From Parvicella tangerina (lineage in GTDB: Bacteria > Bacteroidota > Bacteroidia > Flavobacteriales_D > Parvicellaceae), in assembly GCF_907165195.1 (NCBI RefSeq), contig NZ_OU015584.1, positions 1,426,001 through 1,490,000 of the forward strand: a stretch of DNA of 64,000 nt, in the 5' to 3' direction. Made by a program: the position numbers and the translations under genes. Shown in pieces: positions 50,874-55,454 of the stretch. Numbering within the stretch: position 1 is the stretch's first letter; each line of letters starts with the position of its first letter. Below the pieces are notes generated by a model. It saw nothing but the letters and a program-made list of their open reading frames with translations, had not been told where the DNA came from and ran no database searches.

Positions 50874-51758
50874 ATGAAAATATATTTACTCACACGCAAT
50901 GCTGGCTTATACTCTTCAAGAAGAATATTAGAGGCTGGAAGATATAGAGGTCATGACATTCGTCCGATGGATTATCGGAATACGTCTTTGGTGTTGGAAA
51001 AAGGAAAAAGTCGCATCATTTATAATAATGGTACGCTTTCCTTGCCTGATGCAATCATCCCAAGAATAGGAGCCTCGCACACTTTTTACGGAGCTGCTGT
51101 AGTAAGACAGTTTCAAATGTTAAAAGTATTAACCGCTGTAGATTCTGATGCTTTGCTTCGATCAAGAGATAAATTCAAATGTCTACAATTGCTCAATATG
51201 CAAGGGATTAATATGCCAATCACAGGATTTGCAGGGTCAAATAATAATGCAGATGATTTGATTAAAGCAGTGGGAGATGCACCACTAGTTTTGAAATTGT
51301 TGGAGGGCACCCAAGGACTTGGTGTTCTTTTACAAGACACAAACAAAGGAGCAAAGTCTGTTTTGGAAGCATTCAATCAGGTGGCGGCAAAAATGATGGT
51401 TCAACAATTCATCAAAGAATCCACGGGTACTGATATTAGAGCAATTGTTGTTGGAGGAAAGGTGGTTGCGGCCATGAAAAGAATAGCTCCTCAAGGCGAG
51501 TTTAGAAGTAATATTCACCGTGGAGGAAGAGGGGAGAAGATAGAGCTTTCTTATCAGGAGGAGCAGGCTGCTGTGCAATCCGCAGAAACTTTAGGGTTAG
51601 GAGTAGCAGGTGTTGATATGTTGATCTCAGAAGAAGGTCCCAAAGTCATTGAAGTAAATTCTTCCCCTGGATTAGAAGGTGTAGAAGGATGCACGAAATT
51701 AGATATTGCAAAAGAAATTATAATCTACCTTGAGAATGAGCACAAGCGAAGTAAGTAA
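50874..51758 (+). CDS. rimK: RimK-type ATP-grasp ligase
   Basis: This 294-residue cytosolic ligase is of the RimK family, which adds glutamate to protein C termini (ribosomal S6 in E. coli) or joins amino acids to other acceptors. The N-terminal domain has MKIYLLTRNAGLYSSRRILEAG. The ATP-grasp core has DKFKCLQLLNMQGINMP, LVLKLLEGTQGLGVLL, DIRAIVVGGKVVAAMKRIAPQGEFRSN and GVDMLISEEGPKVIEVNSSPGLEG, including the Mg-binding Glu and Asn. The acceptor cannot be told from sequence. The next gene overlaps it by 23 bases. Confidence 0.92.
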   Translation: MKIYLLTRNAGLYSSRRILEAGRYRGHDIRPMDYRNTSLVLEKGKSRIIYNNGTLSLPDAIIPRIGASHTFYGAAVVRQFQMLKVLTAVDSDALLRSRDKFKCLQLLNMQGINMPITGFAGSNNNADDLIKAVGDAPLVLKLLEGTQGLGVLLQDTNKGAKSVLEAFNQVAAKMMVQQFIKESTGTDIRAIVVGGKVVAAMKRIAPQGEFRSNIHRGGRGEKIELSYQEEQAAVQSAETLGLGVAGVDMLISEEGPKVIEVNSSPGLEGVEGCTKLDIAKEIIIYLENEHKRSK

Positions 51759-52698
51759 CATTATGAACATAAACGGTACGGATATTCATCAGGGTAAACA
51801 TGCTACCGTAAAGATAAAGGTAGGGTCTCTTCCTTCTGGGACGAATATTAACCTGTTTGCACATGTTTATCGGAGTAAGAATCCAGGTCCTACCATGCTT
51901 GTGTTGGGTGGCGTGCATGGCGATGAGGTTAACGGTGTAGAGATTGTAAGAAGAGCTGTTAAGGTTGGATATTTTGATCACCTCAAGCATGGTAATGTAA
52001 TTGCCGTACCGCTGCTGAATATATACGGTTTTATTAATTTCTCGAGAGATCTTCCTGATGGAAAGGACGTGAACAGGAGTTTCCCCGGAAGTTCAAGAGG
52101 TTCATTGGCGTCTAAGGTAGCATACACACTTTCAAAGCACATCTTGCCTTTGGTTGATTTTGGATTAGATTTTCACACAGGAGGGAAGAGTATTCACAAT
52201 TACCCACAAGTTCGGGTGAGTAAGGATGATCGGGATGCTCATAAACTAGCTGAGCTGTTCGGAGCGCCATTTATTGTAAAGAGTAACCTGATCAACAAGT
52301 CGCTTAGAAAGGAATGTCACAAAAGAGGGATACCAATGTTAGTCTACGAAGGTGGAGAGTCGTTAAGATTGGATTCTTTCGCTATTCAAGAAGGATTGAA
52401 TGGTATTCAGCGAGTGATGAGTAGCATGGGAATGACAGAGAAAGAGCCGCTTGCACCCAAAGACCCAATTGTATTAGAAAAGAATAAATGGGTTAGAGCA
52501 GGACAAGCAGGAATCTTAATTTCCTATAAAAAAGCTGGCGATTATGTGAATAAAGGAGATTTACTTGGTTACTTAACGGATCCTTACGGAGTAAGAGAGT
52601 TAAAGGTGAAATCGCCCTATTCTGGTTATATTTATGGACACAACAATATGCCGGTAGTGCATAAAGGAGACGCAATTTATCATATAGGTTTTGAGTAA
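51736..52698 (+). CDS. Succinylglutamate desuccinylase/aspartoacylase family zinc deacylase
   Basis: This 320-residue protein starts at the ATG at 51736. It is a zinc carboxypeptidase-like deacylase of the AstE/AspA family. The metal site is GGVHGDEVNG (His61, Glu64) with the third ligand His147 in DFGLDFHTGG. The substrate-binding segment is DVNRSFPGSSRGS. The C-terminal beta domain (GILISYKKAGDYVNKGDLLGYLTDP) is also conserved. Such enzymes cleave N-acyl amino acids. Partnership with RimK ligases is seen in other bacteria. The start lies within rimK, and its end overlaps trmH by 8 bases. Confidence 0.88.
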   Translation: MSTSEVSNIMNINGTDIHQGKHATVKIKVGSLPSGTNINLFAHVYRSKNPGPTMLVLGGVHGDEVNGVEIVRRAVKVGYFDHLKHGNVIAVPLLNIYGFINFSRDLPDGKDVNRSFPGSSRGSLASKVAYTLSKHILPLVDFGLDFHTGGKSIHNYPQVRVSKDDRDAHKLAELFGAPFIVKSNLINKSLRKECHKRGIPMLVYEGGESLRLDSFAIQEGLNGIQRVMSSMGMTEKEPLAPKDPIVLEKNKWVRAGQAGILISYKKAGDYVNKGDLLGYLTDPYGVRELKVKSPYSGYIYGHNNMPVVHKGDAIYHIGFE

Positions 52699-53428
52699 GT
52701 ATAGAACAGGATCAAAGAGACACAAGGTACCTCAGTGGCGGAAACAAATCGCTTACGATGCGGAATTTCAGGCTTTTTTAGAAAAGTTTTTGACCAGTGA
52801 TAGAATGGAGGTCATGAAGCAGACGCTTGATAATCGTACGCGCCACCTAACTATTGCTATTGAAGATATTTACCATCCGCATAATGCTAGTGCCGTGGTT
52901 CGAACTTGTGATGCATTTGGAATTCAGGATTTACACATCATAGAAAACAGAAATAAATATAGAATGAATCCCAAAGTTGCTCTGGGAAGTGGTCAGTGGA
53001 TTGATATCATAAAACACAACGAAGCAGAGCATAACTCTGCTGCATGTGTTCGACACCTTAAAGAGAAGGGGTATAAAGTAATTGCAACAACTCCTCATAC
53101 GGAGGATATCAGTTTGTACGATCTTAAAGTTGATGATTCAGTAGCGCTTATATTCGGAAATGAAAAAGATGGAATTTCTGATGAGGTGCGAAATGAAGTG
53201 GATGGGTTTATGCGAATTCCGATGTATGGTTTTGCTGAAAGTTTTAATATCTCTGTCAGTGCGGCAATCTGTCTTTCTGTACTAACCGAAAAGCTGAGAA
53301 AAACGGACATACAGTGGCAATTGTCTGAAGAAGAGAAAAAGATCATTCTGTTTGAGTGGACAAAGCACAAGGTTGGTACAATTGATAAGTACTTGCACGA
53401 GTTCAAAAGATTGCAGAACGAAGCATGA
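52691..53428 (+). CDS. trmH: TrmH/SpoU-family RNA 2'-O-methyltransferase
   Basis: This 245-residue SPOUT methyltransferase is probably for Gm18 of tRNA. Motifs are TRHLTIAIEDIYHPHNASAVVRTCDAFG, ALIFGNEKDGIS (motif II) and FNISVSAAICLSVL (motif III) in the knotted site. The TTG start at 52691 overlaps the preceding stop. The first internal ATG, at about codon 38, would remove a helix that TrmH proteins have before this point, so TTG is preferred, with some doubt. The gene overlaps the next by 4 bases. Whether its target is tRNA, or something tied to this operon, is open. Confidence 0.88.
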   Translation: MSKYRTGSKRHKVPQWRKQIAYDAEFQAFLEKFLTSDRMEVMKQTLDNRTRHLTIAIEDIYHPHNASAVVRTCDAFGIQDLHIIENRNKYRMNPKVALGSGQWIDIIKHNEAEHNSAACVRHLKEKGYKVIATTPHTEDISLYDLKVDDSVALIFGNEKDGISDEVRNEVDGFMRIPMYGFAESFNISVSAAICLSVLTEKLRKTDIQWQLSEEEKKIILFEWTKHKVGTIDKYLHEFKRLQNEA

Positions 53429-54729
53429 AACGAGTACATTTAATCGTCCATACAACACATTATAGAAAGGGTAGTGAGCAGTTTGCTGTAATTGCGCAAA
53501 CAATGTTTAATGAGCTAAGTCAAGAGCATCCTGATGATGAGGTGATCTTAAAAGCAATTCTTGGTAAGAAAGAGTTAGTTGCGATATTTAATGAATTGTC
53601 TAGTCAAAACAAAAGGATCAGCAGCTATCACTTTATTGGTCATGCTGGAATGTATGGTCCGATGTTCGGGACTGTTGAATATCCTGAACAGTTCAGTCCT
53701 TATGAATTAGAAAAATTAGATATTCCTTTTGATGAAGATGGAGAAGCTTATTTCCATTGTTGTCGTTCAGCCAGATGGTTTGCACCTTTCTTTGCAAACC
53801 TTCACAAGGTAACAACCTATGGATATCATAACTACACGGCATTCACGAAATCAAAAAAGAAGTACCAACGCATAGGAAAAAACCAGCCTCCTATGTATGC
53901 TATTGGGTGTGCAGGAAAAAAGTCTCACGGATGGATTGGTTCGATCAAAAAGAACATTTTCGGAATAGGGTTGGAGCCCATGAGTAAGTTTGAGTTTTCT
54001 GATCAGGAGCAGGATCGTACCTACAACAAAGTGGCTCATCTTTATGATGCAGTTTTTCAAGATATTAAGGTTCGGGAGGATGAATGGAATTGGATTAGTT
54101 CTCACTTACCTGATAAATCAGGTTTGGAGGTATTAGATATCGGATGTGGGAATGGTGCACTCTTAAAAGAGTTGGCTCCGAAGATCAAAAGTGGGATTGG
54201 TCTTGATTTGTCTGTCGACTTACTTGAATTGGCGGAAAACAATAATTCAGATCATGACTACATCTCTTTTAAGCAAGTAAAAGGGCCTAATTTACCGCTG
54301 CCAGATAGCTCTGTTGATTTAATTATCTCAATGCTTTCTTTTCGGTATTTAGACTGGGATCCATTGATGGATGAGATCAAGCGGGTGCTTCGTCCTGGTG
54401 GTAGAATACTCATTGTAGATATGGTAGCAGTTCCAGCAACACCAATGCAGTACCCAAGGTTATTGTTGGATAAACTGAAACAGAAAAGGCAGTTAAAAAA
54501 GTACCCTGAATTTGCCAAGGCGCTAGCCGAACTCGTTGCTCACCCTGATTGGAAGAAAATGTTAAAGTACAACCCAATACGTGCAGAACATGAAATGAAG
54601 TGGTATCTGGAGAGTCGGTTTCCAGGACGGAAGATGGAAAAGATTAACATAGGGTTTAACTCATCAATTATTGCTTTTGATTCGGGTAATATTGAACATA
54701 TTCAAGATATTCATTTAACCTATCCCTAG
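53425..54729 (+). CDS. Caspase/CHAT-like domain fused to SAM methyltransferase
   Basis: This 434-residue fusion protein is not a familiar one. Residues 1-190 follow caspase-fold order: strand VHLIVH, helix, strand EVILKAI, helix, then SYHFIGHAGMYG with His73 and AYFHCCRSARW with Cys112/Cys113. These are placed like the His-Cys pair of caspases, CHAT and DUF4347 proteins. Residues 195-434 are a class I methyltransferase with motif I LDIGCGNGALL (237-247), then IGLDLSVDLLELAE, LPDSSVDLIISMLSFRYLDW and VLRPGGRILIVDM. Whether the first domain is a protease is inference. It starts inside the trmH stop (4-base overlap) and is 2 bases from the racemase, so it belongs to the operon. Confidence 0.72.
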   Translation: MKRVHLIVHTTHYRKGSEQFAVIAQTMFNELSQEHPDDEVILKAILGKKELVAIFNELSSQNKRISSYHFIGHAGMYGPMFGTVEYPEQFSPYELEKLDIPFDEDGEAYFHCCRSARWFAPFFANLHKVTTYGYHNYTAFTKSKKKYQRIGKNQPPMYAIGCAGKKSHGWIGSIKKNIFGIGLEPMSKFEFSDQEQDRTYNKVAHLYDAVFQDIKVREDEWNWISSHLPDKSGLEVLDIGCGNGALLKELAPKIKSGIGLDLSVDLLELAENNNSDHDYISFKQVKGPNLPLPDSSVDLIISMLSFRYLDWDPLMDEIKRVLRPGGRILIVDMVAVPATPMQYPRLLLDKLKQKRQLKKYPEFAKALAELVAHPDWKKMLKYNPIRAEHEMKWYLESRFPGRKMEKINIGFNSSIIAFDSGNIEHIQDIHLTYP

Positions 54730-54731
54730 TT

Positions 54732-55454
54732 ATGAAAATTGGAATTTGCGACTGGGGAATTGGAGGATTGGGTTTAGTAAAAGCCATGCAAGACAGAGAA
54801 GTTGCAGGAGATATCGTTTATTTTTCTGATGCAGGTTACACCCCTTACGGAAAAGTAGATGAAGCATTACTAAGAAAACGATGGAATCAGGTTAAGGGTT
54901 TCTTGAGAGGTCAAGGCGCAGAGCAGATCGTAGTTGCTTGTAATGCGTTGAGCACGGTTGTTGAAAATGAAAAAAAAGTAATCACCGTTGGAAATGCAGT
55001 CAAGTCTATTATAAAAGAATATAGTAGAAGTAGGCTGGCTATTCTAGGAGGGTTCAGAACTATTGAAAGTAAAATCTATGATTTTGGGTTTAAGGGACAT
55101 ACAGGTTGGGTTGCTCAACCTTTGTCCGCTTTAGTCGAGAGAGGAGTCCTTGAAGGACCAGAAGTTATAGAGGAAGTTCATCGAATCATAAATCAGATAG
55201 GGCAGGTGGAAGTCATTGTTCTCGCATGTACGCACTATCCAGCTTTAATGCCAGTACTAAAGGAACTTTATCCTGATACAAAGTTCATAGATCCGACAGA
55301 ACGACTATTATCTGATGTAACAGAACTTTCAATTCAACATGGCGAGTTGACTTGTTACACAACAGGAAATACTACTCAGATGATGGCAAGTACCCAAAAA
55401 GCATGGGGCATGGTATTGCATAAAGTAAGTCAAATAGAATTAACGCTCCAATGA
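54732..55454 (+). CDS. Divergent aspartate/glutamate racemase
   Basis: This 240-residue protein of the cofactor-independent Asp/Glu racemase family has both catalytic cysteines: Cys70 in VVACNALST and Cys166 in VLACTHYP. SDAGYTPYG matches the PYG substrate motif. The usual N-terminal DSGxGG is DWGIGGLG here, and it is 20-30 residues shorter than MurI. It may make D-glutamate for peptidoglycan, but the change and the company it keeps suggest another amino-acid substrate. It is the last gene of the operon and overlaps the convergent YdeI-CDGSH gene by 15 bases. Confidence 0.8.
   Translation: MKIGICDWGIGGLGLVKAMQDREVAGDIVYFSDAGYTPYGKVDEALLRKRWNQVKGFLRGQGAEQIVVACNALSTVVENEKKVITVGNAVKSIIKEYSRSRLAILGGFRTIESKIYDFGFKGHTGWVAQPLSALVERGVLEGPEVIEEVHRIINQIGQVEVIVLACTHYPALMPVLKELYPDTKFIDPTERLLSDVTELSIQHGELTCYTTGNTTQMMASTQKAWGMVLHKVSQIELTLQ

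Follow-up and report, generated by a model that had tools for sequence, protein, structure and literature searches.

The window, a 64,000-nucleotide stretch of the Parvicella tangerina genome (contig NZ_OU015584.1, positions 1,426,001 to 1,490,000 of the forward strand), contains a gene in which a domain predicted to have the caspase fold is fused to a class I S-adenosylmethionine (SAM) methyltransferase. The gene lies at positions 53425..54729 of the window on the forward strand, as the initial annotation stated, and is one open frame of 434 amino acids with an ATG start. The N-terminal, clan CD-like domain (53425..53994, +) comprises residues 1-190 and was assigned using AlphaFold2, Foldseek and VIA-align. 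The methyltransferase domain (54007..54699, +) comprises residues 195-425. The gene is tightly packed between two neighbors on the same strand: its ATG overlaps the stop of a TrmH-like gene (52691-53428, +) by four bases, and two bases separate its end from the gene of a MurI-like two-cysteine racemase (54732..55454, +; 240 amino acids).

The whole protein was modeled by AlphaFold2 from 54 sequences with a predicted local distance difference test (pLDDT) of 90.6 and a predicted template modeling score (pTM) of 0.81. Residues 1-200 alone, modeled from 30 sequences, gave a pLDDT of 93.3 and a pTM of 0.89. The predicted order of elements, b1-a1-b2-a2-b3-[His73]-a3-b4-[Cys113]-a4-b5-b6, is that of the caspases, with His73 situated right after strand 3 (residues 64-71) and Cys113 right after strand 4 (residues 102-111). 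For the structure search the N-terminal domain was folded alone, the search with the whole protein having returned mostly methyltransferases. Foldseek placed SAVED-CHAT at the top (E = 1.8e-4), followed by CED-3 (1.0e-3), procaspase-3 (1.3e-3), caspase-8 and others. Ranks 1-18 are all of clan CD type, only two rows passing E = 0.001; other proteins appear from rank 19, azoreductases and later Cdc45 and diacylglycerol kinase. Among the best 50 rows of VIA-align (Z 9.9-12.1), 49 are clan CD proteins by title, and the remaining one is Tce1, aligned over the same domain. The Z scores are 12.1 for both Tce1 and SAVED-CHAT, 10.8 for MALT1, 10.6 for caspase-6, 10.5 for a GPI transamidase subunit and 10.3 for legumain. 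A single viral protein structure matched below 0.001, an uncharacterized Solivirus protein (8.8e-5), with viral caspases ranking below it, interspersed with unrelated proteins. The caspase-type fold that had been proposed for the first 190 residues is thus borne out by prediction and by both structure comparisons, and the predicted structure did not turn out to be unrelated to caspases. For residues 1-190 the caspase (clan CD) fold is a high-confidence prediction; the shared fold alone is no proof of function.

Relatives were retrieved by scanning genome contigs with two search patterns, which gave 62 related loci, nearly all from metagenome-assembled genomes. Together with the protein of the window these provided 63 proteins, of which the 58 with at least 380 residues were aligned and the five shorter ones left out. 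His73 (codon 53641..53643, +), presumed to be catalytic, and Cys113 (codon 53761..53763, +), the presumed nucleophile, are both kept in 58/58 rows, and loss of either residue was not seen. The initial annotation had placed this histidine and a pair of cysteines at the positions of a catalytic dyad. The histidine and Cys113 stand; Cys112 (codon 53758-53760, +) does not, being a cysteine in only 42 of the 58. Three of the shorter rows (L007, L037 and L055) also keep both residues, and in the other two (L066 and L067) the histidine is kept and the similarity stops before or at the cysteine. One of the two retrieval patterns included His73, and two unbiased sets were therefore checked. Thirteen of the 58 rows fail the histidine-containing pattern yet carry His73, and pattern-free whole-genome searches gave 14 hits, some of them the same genes as among the 58, with both residues kept in 14/14. 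Such invariance, which extends to the pattern-free sets, shows that the likeness to the caspase fold is not due to chance.

The presumed active edge carries a series of near-invariant loops (TTxYRxG, GH[SA]GMYG, CR[ST][AG]RWF, YT and KSHG), as expected for a working active site. Arg14-x-Gly16 of the b1-a1 loop TTxYRxG (53464..53472, +) is invariant in the alignment, Arg14 being present in 57/57 rows long enough to include the position, and R114, R117, W118 and F119 are kept in 58/58. Arg14 may resemble the S1-pocket arginine of caspases. The usual sequence motif of clan CD is H-G ... A-C. Here H-[SA]-G is found in all 58 rows, and the residue pair is C-C in 42 and A-C in 13 of them.

The initial annotation had also likened the domain to CHAT and caspase-like proteins, and by sequence this kinship was not found. 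Residues 1-200 have no Pfam or NCBIfam match up to E = 1 and no PDB sequence match up to E = 10. A profile of the domain gave three hits in the PDB at E 0.13-1.7, two of them designed proteins. When the N-terminal domains of 30 members were compared with Pfam, five unrelated families were hit by one member each (E 0.018-0.26), and neither Peptidase_C14 (PF00656) nor CHAT (PF12770) was hit by any of the 30. Using hhalign with sets of 23 C14 and 16 CHAT domains from relatives (what remained of 26 of 30 C14 and 19 of 23 CHAT loci after three of each with a cut flank had been dropped), the probability was 0.2% against C14 and 0.2% against CHAT, compared with 0.3% for the racemase taken as a control and 54% when C14 was compared with CHAT in the same way. 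The alignment with C14 puts His73 and Cys113 on the C14 histidine and cysteine, and is not significant. Profile searches of 297 Acidobacteriota genomes and of 395 genomes of the host phylum, in which about 10 first-look candidates per genome were scored, gave matches below 1e-90 or none at 1e-5, so that no intermediate relatives of the domain were seen among the candidates scored. As it matches no Pfam, NCBIfam or PDB family, the N-terminal domain is probably a separate and new family with the clan CD fold, unrecognized by Pfam and NCBIfam. Elsewhere in the host genome, 8 places match Peptidase_C14 at E <=1e-8, the highest number among 60 genomes, and one place matches CHAT.

The methyltransferase half is complete, as had been noted from the sequence. 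Residues 237-330 match Methyltransf_11 (PF08241) at 4.8e-20, with 72.4 bits against a cut-off of 21.2. The glycines G240, G242 and G244 of the DIGCGNG motif are invariant, as is D261, the acidic residue after strand 2, so that the SAM-binding motifs are intact. Structural matches of this half have Z scores of 16.2-17.9 among the best 50 rows. No NCBIfam match exceeds its own cut-off among the best 25 of 51. Between strands of the methyltransferase lies a helical insertion (54442..54618, +; residues 340-398), in which W376, N383, P384, R386, H389, E390, W393 and R398 are invariant and which is probably a substrate cap. The protein ends in Tyr-Pro (54721..54726, +). An aromatic residue followed by proline forms the C-terminus in 55/55 rows that are not cut by a contig end (YP in 51, FP in 4). 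Residues 432-434 are modeled poorly (pLDDT < 50), and the aromatic-Pro end may dock into a partner or an active site. The fusion, which the annotation had suggested seeking in other genomes, is seen in all copies that are not truncated, and among the retrieved loci and the 297 Acidobacteriota genomes no complete protein was found that has the N-terminal domain but lacks the methyltransferase.

The racemase gene follows the fused gene on the same strand in 53 of the 54 loci whose fused gene ends within the contig; in the 54th, L044, only 66 bases remain after the fused gene. Of the 53 loci, 40 have an estimated gap of at most 30 bases. The 54 loci do not include L007, L037, L050, L052, L055 and L062, where the gene reaches or nearly reaches the contig end, nor L066 and L067, both with kilobases of DNA downstream. 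By open reading frame clustering, the racemase is the only family found in most neighborhoods (48 of 63). In the 297 Acidobacteriota genomes the N-terminal domain was found in 10, one of which was the source of the racemase query. The racemase at no less than 57% identity is confined to these 10, where it shares the contig and strand of the N-terminal domain. Three more racemase matches in Acidobacteriota, at 31-35% identity and without the N-terminal domain, look like ordinary MurI.

The racemase of the window scores 80.1 bits against TIGR00067 (79.4 in the genome search), below the cut-off of 146.65. The two catalytic cysteines, Cys70 and Cys166, and the CTH motif are kept in all 54 linked racemases (those of the 53 loci and the window). 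The FDSG motif of 12/12 MurI rows is replaced by D[W/Y]G in 54/54 linked racemases (50 DWG, 4 DYG), and the motif at the first catalytic cysteine is CNA, CHS, CHA or CNS in 54/54, never CNT. DSG and CNT hold the substrate in MurI. In a quick tree, which carries a long-branch warning that includes the branch of the window, the 54 linked racemases are separated from 12 canonical MurI rows by a branch with a Shimodaira-Hasegawa-like approximate likelihood ratio (SH-aLRT) support of 100. A MurI over the TIGR00067 cut-off is present in the genome of the window and in 12 of 14 others, with one such match per genome in 12 of the 14. The linked racemase lies below the cut-off in the genome of the window and, as judged by coordinates, in G100 and G102. 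The complete Aquihabitans genome (G103) and the bin G108 have a single TIGR00067 match, which is below the cut-off. The linked racemase is a clade of its own, separate from the peptidoglycan MurI in most hosts. On the complete chromosome of Aquihabitans sp. G128 (G103; L039), the region of the linked racemase is the sole TIGR00067 match at E 0.001.

A third protein, a cupin resembling cysteine dioxygenase, is linked in 13 of the 62 loci, directly upstream of the fused gene; there is none at the locus of the window. In four actinobacterial loci (L039, L045, L046 and L048) the cupin is in the same frame as the caspase-fold domain and the methyltransferase. These shared frames span 643-687 amino acids, counted from the reading start used by the script, with no stop between, and both of those scanned with Pfam contain CDO_I and a methyltransferase. 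PF05995 exceeds its cut-off of 23 bits in 6/6 linked cupins scanned (of the 13), with 27.4-45 bits. Four histidines, one arginine and further residues are invariant in 13/13, and we take the three residues that bind the metal in cysteine dioxygenase to be among these. Among solved structures the cupin profile best matches the putative cysteine dioxygenase 3eqe (3.2e-23). An unlinked match of this type is present in 9 of the 10 Acidobacteriota genomes bearing the module and in 59 of the 287 others (Fisher p = 9e-6, kinship ignored).

Two further cupin sequences were observed. In L053, at about 2250-2394 and upstream of the fused gene, lie both ends of a cupin gene like that of L056 with the middle gone, either a relic or an assembly fault. 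The genome of the window has a second cysteine dioxygenase-like cupin, at L136 445-2031 (-), G000:C1 ~2164525, in a frame of 528 amino acids that also holds an apparent, different SAM methyltransferase; a caspase-like domain was not seen in it by eye. Beside it is an aminotransferase-like frame, and no racemase-like frame was seen within 3.4 kilobases.

Related loci occur in Bacteroidota, Acidobacteriota, Actinomycetota, Myxococcota, Verrucomicrobiota, Pseudomonadota and further bins, as grouped by the titles of their records. The module is rare nevertheless: it is present in 4 of 99 relatives of the host (the genome of the window excluded), and the only one of 395 sampled genomes of the host phylum to have it is that of the window. 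Given so patchy a distribution, loss or occasional transfer must be frequent. In the tree of the fused protein six phyla are grouped with five changes, the minimum. No relative was found in the viral contigs searched. Of the three proteins scanned with PADLOC, the fused protein matches only mad2 (residues 222-333), and the racemase and one cupin match nothing. The phylum-structured tree, the lack of viral relatives and the lack of a defense match beyond a generic methyltransferase argue for a metabolic function that is old and has been passed on mostly by vertical descent, and not for a mobile weapon or a defense system. A defense island is disfavored on the same three grounds, the PADLOC result covering the three proteins.

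Other neighbors of the fused gene are less constant. The next neighbor families, found in up to 18 loci, track acidobacterial neighborhoods. Recurrent acidobacterial neighbors, a DUF58-like, a META-like and a SpoIIM-like protein as read from the sequence, were set aside as lineage synteny. In the window, a gene for a RimK-like glutamate ligase and then one of the AstE/AspA deacylase type (50874-52698) lie upstream of the TrmH-like and fused genes. Neither is present at L006, the nearest homologous locus, which resembles the window in having the TrmH-like gene upstream and in some of the genes downstream. A hydrophobic protein of 480-499 amino acids precedes the fused gene in L012, L032, L065 and the proteobacterial bin L062. 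By eye its start is like that of a membrane glycosyltransferase, and the one that was scanned has no Pfam hit.

The proteins of the locus may form a small module of metabolic enzymes that acts on a small substrate, an amino acid or a peptide, a reading to which we give an even chance. The constant racemase, the optional domain similar to a thiol dioxygenase and the phylum-structured inheritance fit such a module better than they fit a protease. The caspase-fold domain would be a cysteine hydrolase or an acyltransferase, in which His73 would activate Cys113 for attack on the carbonyl of an amide or ester, leading to hydrolysis or acyl transfer. The methyltransferase would methylate the product with a methyl group from SAM, and the racemase, with Cys70 and Cys166 as its two bases, would invert the alpha-carbon of that product. 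The cupin, where present, would oxidize a thiol in the manner of cysteine dioxygenase. All of these proteins would share one substrate or its successive forms. Most likely this substrate would be an amino acid that is acidic or contains sulfur, or else a short amide of such an amino acid, a guess that is based on the many invariant arginine, lysine and histidine residues around the site, on the MurI ancestry of the racemase and on the dioxygenase. A more specific version, in which the pathway makes or degrades a D-configured, methylated and possibly sulfur-oxidized amino-acid compound and the caspase fold serves not as a protease but as a biosynthetic hydrolase or acyltransferase, in one chain with the methyltransferase (in Actinobacteria with a thiol dioxygenase too) and with a racemase dedicated to it, is tentative, and we consider it somewhat more likely to be wrong than right.

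Several observations weigh against a metabolic module. Caspase-fold proteins whose dyad is intact are proteases more often than they are biosynthetic enzymes. The racemase is not always close to the fused gene, the widest gaps being about 240 bases in L040 and about 700 bases in L034 and L059. Despite the kilobases that follow the gene in L066 and L067, neither has a convincing racemase: nothing in L066 matches one, and the match in L067 covers only 41 residues and starts inside the matched stretch. Both loci hold no more of the gene than its first 107-113 residues, with no methyltransferase part anywhere, and are therefore broken or misassembled. In 49 of the 62 loci no cupin was found (of these, L059 is almost without upstream DNA and L053 has the remnant only), and 5 of 11 genomes bearing the module, mostly drafts and three of them relatives of the host, have no match resembling cysteine dioxygenase. 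The cupin is thus not essential. Its enrichment in Acidobacteriota may reflect shared ancestry only. On the tree, with 55 of the 58 rows labeled, cupin linkage needs five changes, so that an ancestral cupin lost once is unsupported.

The strongest alternative is that the fused protein is a regulated or self-processing protease, perhaps cleaving itself between its domains, with the methyltransferase and racemase making or sensing the trigger. The clan CD fold with its invariant dyad would suit a protease, active proteases are among the best structural matches, and the host genome has the 8 Peptidase_C14 places mentioned above. The linker also has well-kept positions (E184 in 51 of the 58 rows, lysine at 187 in 42, F189 in 51 and proline at 191 in 55), which would leave room for a cleavage site. 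However, none of the linker positions between 177 and 199 is invariant, and no neighboring gene that might encode a protein substrate recurs across phyla. The PADLOC match is limited to the methyltransferase part, in a scan of three of the module's own proteins, no relative was found in the viral contigs, and the gene is inherited by phylum, unlike most mobile defense genes. We consider a protease of this kind unlikely.

It is more doubtful still that the N-terminal domain is an inactive caspase-like scaffold, which only binds the racemase or positions the substrate of the methyltransferase. In its favor, the complete domain was not found apart from the methyltransferase, and the spacing of H-[SA]-G departs from the usual H-G of the clan. 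On the other hand, His73 and Cys113 are invariant in 58/58 rows, along with many other residues of the active edge, and caspase pseudoenzymes tend to lose the dyad, an example being the Tyr/Ser pseudo-orthocaspases (PMC6426788). The least probable explanation is an accessory supply of D-glutamate or a part in cell-wall metabolism, in which the linked enzyme would be the second or the only glutamate racemase of the cell and the fused protein would modify a glutamate-containing muropeptide: the racemase is clearly MurI-like (80 bits against TIGR00067) and Aquihabitans and G108 each have a single TIGR00067 match, below the cut-off, but 12 of the 14 genomes also have one MurI each over the cut-off, which the linked copy fails to reach in the genome of the window, G100 and G102, and the substrate-holding serine of DSG and threonine of CNT are replaced in 54/54.

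The module of two to three enzymes is a larger finding than the fused protein itself. The latter is similar to the clan CD peptidases (caspases, the MALT1 paracaspase, legumain, the GPI transamidase subunit and CHAT) in its predicted fold and in the order of histidine and then cysteine, with the dyad predicted to lie where strands 3 and 4 end. It differs from them in having no profile similarity to C14 or CHAT, in having H-[SA]-G in place of H-G, and in its fixed C-terminal methyltransferase and racemase partner. The closest structures are SAVED-CHAT (8tl0; Z 12.1, 157 residues aligned, root-mean-square deviation 3.8, 12% identity), whose SAVED domain is absent from the fused protein, and Tce1 (9qpe; Z 12.1, 148 residues aligned, root-mean-square deviation 3.2, 10% identity). 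Prokaryotic metacaspases and orthocaspases are likewise bacterial caspase-fold proteins with multidomain architectures. A survey covering 671 bacterial metacaspases (PMC3501461) uses neither the word methyltransferase nor racemase in its main text, and the architecture is not described in the parts of the literature consulted, which include sections of PMC3501461, PMC10946740 and PMC2922099. Clan CD gains a probable new family, in an architecture that the literature searched did not name. If the caspase fold serves metabolism here, the known uses of the fold of the apoptotic proteases would widen.

The other components each have a known counterpart. The methyltransferase resembles the Methyltransf_11 or UbiE-type class I SAM enzymes, matching PF08241 over the cut-off and agreeing in structure, and is distinguished from them by the long, conserved helical insertion and the aromatic-Pro end. 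The linked racemase has both catalytic cysteines and the CTH and PYG motifs of the glutamate racemase MurI, but forms a separate clade below the TIGR00067 cut-off, with D[W/Y]G and without a threonine after the first Cys-Asn. The linked cupins are similar to type I cysteine dioxygenase by PF05995 and by the profile match to 3eqe, and differ from it in adjoining, or being fused with, the caspase-fold and methyltransferase protein. With a constant partner and a thiol dioxygenase fused in four loci, the function of the module can be tested using two or three small proteins.

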